This document shows positions 8,166 through 9,797 of a stretch of DNA of 32,670 nt, in pieces. The notes below the pieces were generated by a model. That model was not told the origin of the DNA and did not search any database. It was given only the letters and a program-made list of their open reading frames with translations. The DNA is from Chrysochromulina tobinii (lineage: Eukaryota; Haptophyta; Prymnesiales; Chrysochromulinaceae), in the NCBI GenBank assembly GCA_001275005.1, contig JWZX01003304.1, positions 1-32,670 on the forward strand, read 5' to 3'. Each line of letters starts with the position of its first letter. Position 1 is the first letter of the stretch. The position numbers and the translations under genes are program-made.

Positions 8166-9797
8166 TCATCCAAACATGCGGCGTGTCTCCTTGGCGATGA
8201 TCTCGATGGCCTCGTCGATCTGCGCAGCCGTGATGATCAGTGGCGGCGCGAGTCGGATGATGTGCTCGTGCGTAGGCTTGGCAAGAAGCCCAGCGTCCTT
8301 GTGCGCATAGCAGAGCGCGCCCGCATTCCGCTTCTCGCCCTCTGGCCGAATGACGATCGCGTTGAGCAGCCCCCGGCCGCGCACCGTTGTGACCGCAGCG
8401 CTCCCGATCGCCGCAAGCCCCGCGCGCAGCCTCTCGCCCATGAGGGCCGCGTTCTCGGCGAGCCGCTCCTCGCGTAGCACCTCGAGCGCCGCCATGGCCA
8501 CGGCGCACCCGAGAGGGTTGCCGCCATACGTGGAGCCGTGCTCACCCGGGCGGAGCGTGAGCATCACCTCGTCGCTCGAGAGCACTGCGCTCACTGGATA
8601 CACGCCACCCGAGAGCGCCTTGCCAAGCACGAGCACGTCCGGCTTCACCTGTGAACATTCATGCAATCAGAGGTCATCAGCATGCAATCAGAGGTCATCA
8701 GCATGCAATCAGAGGTCATCAGCATGCAATCAGAGGTCATCAGCATGCAATCAGAGGTCATCAGCATGCAATCAGAGGTCATCAGCATGCAATCAGAGGT
8801 CATCAGCATGCAATCAGAGGTCATCAGCATCGCAATCCAGAGGATGAGCACGTCCGGCTTCACCTGCTCGTAGTCACAGGCGAGCATCTTGCCCGTGCGG
8901 CACAGGCCTGTCTGCACCTCGTCGGCGATCATGAGTACGTTGTAGCGCGTGCACAGCTCGCGCACGCCTCGGAGGTACCCCTCGTGAGGCACTACCACGC
9001 CCGCCTCACCCTGGATAGGCTCGAGGGAGTCAAATGCGCTGTGGTGAGCACTTGCATGCAAGGCAGGTCATCAGTGGCAATCAACGCACCTGGATAGGCT
9101 CGAGCATAAAGCCAGCGATGCGTGCCCCGTCCTGGGCAAAGGCGGCCTCGAGCGCCGCAAGGTCATTGTACGGCACCAAGGGGACGCCGGGTAAGTAGGG
9201 GCCGAAGCCGGCGCGGCAGCTCGGGTCGGATGACGACGAGCACGCCGAGATCGTGCGCCCCCAAAAGTTATGGGTGCAGAAGAGTACCAGAGCCTCGTCC
9301 TTGGCGATGCCCTTGACGTCGTAGCCCCAGCGGCGCGCGAGCTTGAGCGCGGTCTCGCCGCCCTCGACGCCGGTATTCATCGGGAGCACGCGGTCGTAGC
9401 CAAAATACTCGGTCACGAACCGCTCGTACTCCCCGAGCATGTTGTTGTGGAAGGCACGCGATGTGAGCGTCAGCTTGGCCGCCTGCCGCTGCAAGGCGTC
9501 AAGGATCTTGGGGTGCGAATGACCTTGGTTGACAGCCGAGTATGCTGAGAGGAAGTCGAGATAGCGGCGCCCGGAGACATCCCAGACGTGCACGCCCAGG
9601 CCGCGCTCAAGCACAACTGGCAGCGGCGCGTAGTTGAACGCGCCATGCTCCACCTCGAGGGCGATCAGGCGAGCGGCCTCGTCGTGGTCGGCGGAGATGG
9701 CGGTGCTGCGCGCACGCGTGCCAGTGGCAAAGGCGCGAATCGCCCTGGGCCGCGCCGCACGGCGAGCGAGAGAGGGGACGAACATGTTGACGAACAT
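8166..9797 (-). CDS. OAT: Ornithine aminotransferase, mitochondrial (3 exons)
   Basis: PLP enzyme converting ornithine plus 2-oxoglutarate to glutamate semialdehyde plus glutamate. Exons on the minus strand: 9797-9090, 9010-8864 and 8648-8166; 445 residues, close to the usual ~440. Class III aminotransferase landmarks: [34 protein letters not shown] across intron 1, IADEVQTGL, Schiff-base Lys in LGKALSGG just after intron 2, and [13 protein letters not shown]. Joined exons align with OAT without gaps. The start is chosen at the ATG at 9797 (another at 9785) because the following [19 protein letters not shown] is basic and Ser/Arg-rich with no acidic residues, like a mitochondrial presequence. 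An ATG at 9881 is also in frame. Both introns are flanked by direct repeats of exon sequence. Confidence 0.93.
8649..8863 (-). other. OAT intron 2 (215 nt, phase 0), bounded by a 21-bp direct repeat
   Basis: Donor CAG|GTGAAG at 8863, acceptor TTCACAG|GTGAAG ending at 8649. The same 21 bases (positions 8846-8866 and 8631-8651) span both splice junctions, and the distance between the copies equals the intron length. Most of the intron is the 21-nt satellite at 8661-8828. In the frame of exon 2 the intron has no internal stop; retention would add repeats of MLMTSDC and terminate a few bases beyond the acceptor. Confidence 0.93.
8661..8828. repeat. 21-nt satellite, 8 perfect copies, inside OAT intron 2
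   Basis: Eight head-to-tail identical units beginning ATGCAATCAGAGGTCATCAG (plus one more C), followed by a decayed ninth copy with two extra bases up to about 8845. There are no spacers. Sense-strand units read CTGATGACCTCTGATTGCAT. Perfect identity of eight copies implies recent expansion or homogenisation. Confidence 0.97.
9011..9089 (-). other. OAT intron 1 (79 nt, phase 0), bounded by a 16-bp direct repeat
   Basis: Donor CCAG|GTGCGT at 9089, acceptor TATCCAG|GGTGAG ending at 9011. The 16-mer CTCGAGCCTATCCAGG occurs at the end of exon 1 and again at the end of the intron (plus-strand positions 9089-9104 and 9010-9025), with both splice sites at the same place in the repeat. Splicing restores [12 protein letters not shown]. 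Positions 9054-9083 match the satellite unit of intron 2. Confidence 0.93.

Follow-up and report, generated by a model that had tools for sequence, protein, structure and literature searches.

Probable origin of an ornithine aminotransferase intron in Chrysochromulina tobinii by insertion of an introner-like repeat with target duplication

An ornithine aminotransferase gene with two predicted introns

The window analyzed here is the whole of a 32,670-nt stretch of Chrysochromulina tobinii DNA (contig JWZX01003304.1), with a GC content of ~0.64. For a neighboring protein, the best matches that carry a name are from Haptolina, Coccolithus, and Chrysotila, all haptophytes. It carries an ornithine aminotransferase gene, OAT1, in three exons (Table 1). 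Removal of the two introns yields a 445-residue product, of which residues 55 to 438 match the Pfam domain Aminotran_3 (E = 7.7e-117). Twelve homologues align with the spliced product without a gap at either junction, and translation of a transcript that keeps intron 2 meets a premature stop. Splicing at both introns is therefore predicted from protein conservation. A 25-bp tandem repeat in four copies (8058-8160) lies just 3' of the OAT1 stop codon.

Table 1. Positions of the genes, introns, and repeats discussed in the text, numbered along the window.
Feature	Position	Strand	Details
OAT1 (ornithine aminotransferase gene)	8166..9797	-	445-residue spliced translation, alignment with 12 homologues, Pfam
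OAT1 exon 1	9090-9797	-	
OAT1 intron 1	9011-9089	-	79 nt, GTGCGT...ATCCAG
OAT1 exon 2	8864-9010	-	
OAT1 intron 2	8649-8863	-	215 nt, GTGAAG...TCACAG; OAT2 (paralog, C2250) lacks it
OAT1 exon 3, including stop	8166-8648	-	
Intron 2, upstream direct-repeat copy	8846..8866	-	21 nt, holds donor; ~27 nt (8840-8866) by OAT2 comparison
Intron 2, downstream direct-repeat copy	8631..8651	-	at acceptor; 27-nt counterpart 8625-8651, 3 mismatches
Intron 2, 21-bp unit TGATTGCATGCTGATGACCTC	8660..8843	-	8.7 copies, most of intron 2; TRF and 20-mer genome count
Intron 1 core TTGCATGCAAGTGCTCACCAC	within 9011..9089	-	intron common to OAT1 (79 nt) and OAT2 (78 nt)
Intron 1, upstream copy of 16-nt direct repeat	9089..9104	-	
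Intron 1, downstream copy of 16-nt direct repeat	9010..9025	-	holds acceptor
Intron of CPS-like gene	27168..27343	+	176 nt; third example in the window; CTCCCC(A/T)CAG followed by GTGCTCGTC at both junctions

Intron 2 of OAT1 lies between two exact copies of a 21-mer, which on the minus strand reads CAG followed by GTGAAGCCGGACGTGCTC. As the initial annotation had observed, the copies span both splice junctions, and their spacing equals the intron length of 215. A single offset within the 21-mer gives both the GT of the donor and the AG of the acceptor, so the cut falls at the same place in each copy. No exact 16-mer or 21-mer repeat pair spaced 50 to 600 nt apart arose in 40 first-order Markov runs at window length.

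Most of intron 2 is a tandem array of a 21-bp unit. A 20-mer of this unit has 438 copies in the genome at two mismatches or fewer, and its reversed control has none. The exon-derived share of the intron is 21 of 215 nt; judged against the paralog described below it is 27 nt, three of them mismatched. GC content is 0.49 in intron 2 and 0.66 in exon 1. The intron holds 16 CTGAY motifs that could serve as candidate branch points. Its last bases, GAATGTTCACAG, were not matched to the repeat family.

An empty site in a paralog

A search of the same genome with spliced OAT revealed a second gene, OAT2, on contig C2250. The two genes are identical at 1,117 of 1,167 aligned coding bases (95.7%; Ks 0.138, Ka 0.0145). 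No clear alignment with OAT1 was seen outside the coding region, so OAT2 is apparently a dispersed copy and not an allele. Similarity begins within about the first 40 codons and ends at the stop codon (L119, C2250:91000-93200); the copying apparently took a piece the size of the gene, first intron included, and left the flanks behind.

OAT2 keeps intron 1 at the same place and reads straight through the site of intron 2, where the target is present once: GAGCAC, then GTGAAGCCGGACCTCCTCATCCTC, then GGCAAGG. This single site differs from the 21-mer at three positions. On its left this site continues as the upstream copy does in OAT1, and on its right as the downstream copy does, and nothing at the site resembles the interior of intron 2. 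The initial annotation had predicted a close relative in which the intron is absent and the site occurs once; OAT2 is, in essence, such a relative.

The comparison also shows how far the duplication reaches. Intron 2 begins with GTGAAGCCGGACGTGCTCATCCTC; 22 of these 24 bases match OAT2, including ATCCTC. Beyond the 21-mer, the upstream copy runs on into this same ATCCTC, whereas the coding copy has GTGCTT. From these shared and differing bases, the target duplication was about 27 nt long and has acquired three changes since. The copies, previously described as perfect, are so over 21 bases and not over the ~27 nt delimited by OAT2. To call the event recent was likewise an overstatement, given three differences over 27 positions. 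Three changes in 27 are about what the Ks between the OAT copies would give, so the gain is not necessarily very recent.

Other sequences also lack the intron. An environmental open reading frame of the OAT2 type, which represents a cluster of 28 and resembles OAT2 at 181 of 183 residues, is uninterrupted at the intron 2 site. A further homologue, P0020, has neither OAT intron. Elsewhere it carries 33 inserted in-frame residues that resemble an unspliced intron, so P0020 is probably genomic DNA. We infer that the change was a gain of intron 2 in OAT1, which is the simplest reading.

Related repeats lie between direct repeats across the genome

We searched the 53.15-Mb genome (2,253 contigs) for both OAT introns. 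The core of intron 1 has 1,417 copies at two mismatches or fewer, and a related 3' motif, GCTGATGGCCTCCCTCATCAG, has 1,498; reversed controls gave none for either. Two motif patterns had no exact match in viral contigs. We retrieved 54 loci carrying the intron 2 unit and 40 carrying the intron 1 core, drawn from the first 100 matches listed of the 438 (zero to one mismatch) and of the 1,417 (no mismatch). These loci are the closest motif matches, so they lean toward close copies that are probably young. OAT intron 2 falls outside the first set; OAT intron 1 lies inside the second and is counted there.

After low-complexity repeats were removed, 87 of 118 clusters lay between direct repeats scoring 12 or more (49/71 in the intron 2 unit set and 38/47 in the intron 1 core set), and the other 31 had no such repeat. 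Random points gave 41/1,000 in arbitrary stretches and 68/1,180 when matched for span. GT-AG stood at a matched offset in 51 of the 87 repeats (28/49 and 23/38 in the respective sets), compared with 9/49 and 6/38 for the antisense control, CT-AC. Among the repeats at random points, GT-AG was found in 3/41 and 6/68 and CT-AC in 5/41 and 2/68. Of the 36 repeats without GT-AG, 9 had GC-AG, a figure that stands without a control.

The signal is tied to the element families and not to direct repeats alone, because an unbiased scan for AG/GT repeats in the window and 20 arbitrary stretches of 10 kb yielded 13 clusters against 11 in the mirrored control, which is no excess. Nor was AG/GT among the common dinucleotide pairs in these 21 stretches. 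Two pairs of loci on different contigs (L082/L100 and L063/L074) agree fully along 700 bases or to 99.7% along 761, and represent recent duplicates or uncollapsed haplotypes of the assembly. Each pair was counted twice; none of the four loci has a GT-AG repeat.

For measurements of repeats and inserts, we filtered 54 events to 41 single-insert GT-AG cases (score 11 or more), removing 13 that were arrays or longer than 150 nt. Setting aside four array-like cases (one at L095, L001, one at L051, and L067) left 37 clean cases. Their repeats are 11 to 48 nt long (median 24) and perfect in 26 of the 37, with 13 mismatches in 911 nt overall, and the median insert is 53 nt. At L072 and L078, element-like bases directly follow the second repeat copy. 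We saw no terminal inverted repeats: across all 41 cases, insert-end complementarity averaged 2.95 of 12 nt, versus 2.92 after shuffling.

Either splice site can come from the element

The 37 clean cases fall into three arrangements. In type D (21/37), the repeat lies downstream of the junction, the target copy provides the GT, and the element provides the 3' splice site, often ending in CATCAG or CCCCACAG. In type U (15/37), the repeat lies upstream of the junction, the element provides the donor, and the target copy provides the AG; in the intron 1 family this donor is often GTACGTTGA or GTGCGTTGA. Type B, with both splice sites inside the repeat, was seen once (L077). Both main arrangements occur in both families, with D/U counts of 11/10 in the intron 1 core family and 10/5 in the intron 2 unit family. 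The window has all three: OAT intron 2 is type D, OAT intron 1 is type U, and the intron of the CPS-like gene is type B.

The element end coincides with the AG of the intron in type D, and the element start with the GT in type U. This coincidence may reflect mechanism or merely selection for exact splicing. At the other end the intron carries locus-specific target sequence: 18 to 24 nt in OAT intron 2 and 15 nt in OAT intron 1. Locus-specific intronic bases at one end number 10 to 47 in type D and U cases, and more than 10 in 34/37.

Units of target repeat plus element also stand in tandem arrays, with periods of 81 bp at L036, 83 bp at L034, 57 bp in the CPS-like gene, and 43 bp at L017:3872-4042. 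This suggests that introns flanked by direct repeats are unstable and prone to expansion.

Predicted splicing restores conserved proteins at other loci

Spliced flanks of 36 events were translated, and nine non-OAT peptides, picked because they were recognizable, were compared with Pfam together with OAT. A domain above the cut-off spans the junction at six of the nine: HAT (L058), Helicase_C (L059), Peptidase_M16_C (L106), Filamin (L118), PPR_2 (L114), and GH127 (L111). No such domain crosses the junction at L086, L094, or L064. Similar motifs thus sit in unrelated genes, as the spliced loci match unrelated Pfam families. An open frame was present in 32 of 47 spliced sequences, in 27 to 30 of 47 with the acceptor shifted by 1 to 2 nt, and in 14 of 47 left unspliced, so this count does not separate spliced from shifted sequences.

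The distant paralogs that we examined for the CPS-like, L059, and L086 genes are 53 to 66% identical. One paralog of the L059 gene is uninterrupted at the corresponding site, as are two of three paralog matches of the L086 gene, the third of which holds a stop. Two other paralog searches gave no empty site: the joined flanks of L104 matched their own locus alone, and the matches to L058 on other contigs were distant (25 to 38%).

Origin of OAT intron 2

We conclude, with a probability of roughly 85%, that OAT intron 2 is an introner-like repeat that inserted into the coding sequence of OAT1, with target duplication, after OAT1 and OAT2 had split. At OAT1 we observe the duplication, the element family, the empty paralog, and the restored conserved protein sequence. 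In the proposed sequence of events, a short member of the high-copy family would have inserted between GAGCAG and GGCAAGG and duplicated ~21 to 27 nt of target. The upstream target copy, which starts with GT, would have become the donor, and the inserted part, which ends in CACAG, the acceptor. The downstream copy would have kept its coding role, leaving the protein unchanged. Tandem amplification of the 21-bp unit probably followed.

We are less sure of how the insertion occurred. It may have used staggered breaks or nicks that were patched with intron-derived sequence; our grounds are that the duplications differ in length, that the element ends are not constant, and that we saw no terminal inverted repeats. 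The process would then perhaps be introner-like insertion at staggered breaks, with long and variable target duplication. The same features fit a repair in which intron-derived sequence fills staggered breaks or paired nicks, and they also fit a route through reverse transcription. No autonomous element or enzyme was identified for the repeat families.

Several other origins have to be weighed against introner-like insertion. A staggered double-strand break might have been repaired with unrelated chance filler, in which case no mobile family is involved and the repeats are fill-in duplications. Target sequence directly repeated at both ends, variable duplication length, varied use of splice sites, and the lack of terminal inverted repeats all fit this account, and neointrons of Daphnia share repeats of 4 to 12 bp with the adjacent exon (PMC4202315). 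The same motifs recur hundreds to more than 1,000 times, however, so the filler is not random. Chance repair agrees with the breakage step of our preferred reading but leaves motif recurrence unexplained, and we judge it possible, if unlikely.

We are more doubtful that a host retrotransposon enzyme copied intron RNA by target-primed reverse transcription, leaving long variable duplications and one end at an intron end. Type D elements do end at AG and type U elements do start at GT, and 22 of 26 reverse-transcriptase matches in the genome exceed the Pfam cut-off. Yet type U keeps the 5' end and loses the 3' end, an outcome not expected of simple target priming, and the exact ends may reflect only selection for splicing.

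A conventional nonautonomous DNA transposon with fixed ends, like the introners of Micromonas or Aureococcus, would account for the high copy number, the unrelated genes, and the target duplication. We consider it improbable. A fixed-end transposase is disfavored because the duplications run from 11 to 48 nt rather than being short and of fixed length, terminal inverted repeats were not seen, and both splice-site arrangements within one family imply that element ends are not fixed.

Loss from OAT2 of an intron 2 ancestral to both copies is very unlikely. Loss mediated by cDNA tends to strike 3'-proximal introns, and of the two in OAT1 intron 2 lies nearer that end. Against this, OAT1 intron 2 has a flanking target duplication and its body belongs to a high-copy family, and the site is uninterrupted both in the apparently genomic P0020 and in the environmental frame of the OAT2 type. 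Hardly credible, and rejected here, is the origin first proposed in the initial annotation, tandem duplication of an exon segment containing AG/GT with one copy serving as donor and the other as acceptor: the donor does lie in a duplicated AG/GT exon segment and the spacing equals the intron length, but if a tandem duplication had given rise to both splice sites, the intron should consist of exon sequence, and here only 21 to 27 of 215 nt are exon-like, most of the interior being a genome-wide repeat with no counterpart at the OAT2 site.

Beyond OAT1, these families may represent a class of introners without fixed ends, an idea that we raise tentatively and at somewhat worse than even odds. 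Intron fragments, exact at one end, would be copied into staggered breaks or nicks of ~11 to 48 nt in coding DNA. One family could supply either the donor or the acceptor, and on rare occasions neither; each resulting intron, lying within a direct repeat, could then expand into arrays.

Relation to known intron gains

Introners that duplicate their target are already known; what differs in our data is the long, variable duplication and the presence of both arrangements in each family. Like the introners of PMC9860276, the repeats described here are short intron-making sequences in many unrelated genes, they duplicate their target, and element and target each contribute one splice site. Known introner families in that work have target duplications of 3 to 9 bp, unlike the 11 to 48 nt (median 24) and the two arrangements per family found here. 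Introners reported there from the metagenome-derived genome of a Chrysochromulina sp. bring the 5' splice site with them, have a 4-bp duplication, and lack terminal inverted repeats (PMC9860276).

The screen of Gozashti et al. 2022 (PMC9860276) counts introns as similar only if the similarity begins, at both ends, inside a 15-base region of five exonic or ten intronic bases. In our cases, by contrast, similarity stops short of one intron end. Most such introns would tend to fail this screen, because more than 10 intronic bases at one end are locus specific in 34 of 37. If the class without fixed ends is real, then intron gain by introners may be undercounted.

Gain at staggered breaks in Daphnia (PMC4202315) resembles our cases in its flanking direct repeats and filler in coding sequence; the repeats there are 4 to 12 bp, whereas ours are longer and the filler comes from recurrent families. 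Tandem genomic duplication (reviewed in PMC3443670) likewise places a duplicated AGGT-bearing segment at both junctions, but intron 2 is not made of duplicated exon. Introner elements of Amoebophrya (PMC7789003) are repeated introns with direct repeats across their boundaries, as here. They have direct repeats of 3 to 5 nt, inverted repeats of 8 to 20 nt, and largely noncanonical splice sites, in contrast to the long repeats, GT-AG sites, and lack of visible inverted repeats in our cases.

Rogers and Bendich 2025 (PMC11782384) report that 213 introns of numerous organisms have repeats of 4 to 30 bp at their borders or close to them. The terms haptophyt, Emiliania, and Chrysochromulina do not appear in that text, and the parts of it covered here describe neither a mobile family nor an empty paralog. 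Our literature search on intron gain with long target site duplications found no paper.

The origin of new spliceosomal introns is a long-standing question, and few cases have been caught early. Here, OAT occurs in a single genome both with and without the insertion, and many other insertions there have near-identical duplicated targets. This makes the breakage-and-insertion step testable.

Other introns of the window

Intron 1 differs between OAT1 and OAT2 by only two substitutions and one indel in 79 nt, and the exon Ks is 0.138. A local gene conversion may lie behind this, or the intron may be under constraint.

The third intron with junction repeats lies in a gene that we take to be carbamoyl-phosphate-synthase-like (CPS-like). 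Its repeats, at 27158-27176 and 27334-27352, differ by one mismatch, and a 57-bp tandem array of repeat plus filler occupies 27150-27290. A CPS-like paralog, 58% identical, is uninterrupted at the position of this intron.

At about 12518-12789 on the plus strand, in a gene that is presumably CLPTM1-like, a probable intron opens with an 11.5-copy array of the decamer GACTGCCTCG. No direct repeat flanks it by eye, and it is perhaps older or of different origin. The contig itself ends in a run of 27 G (32644-32670), possibly a sequencing or assembly artifact.
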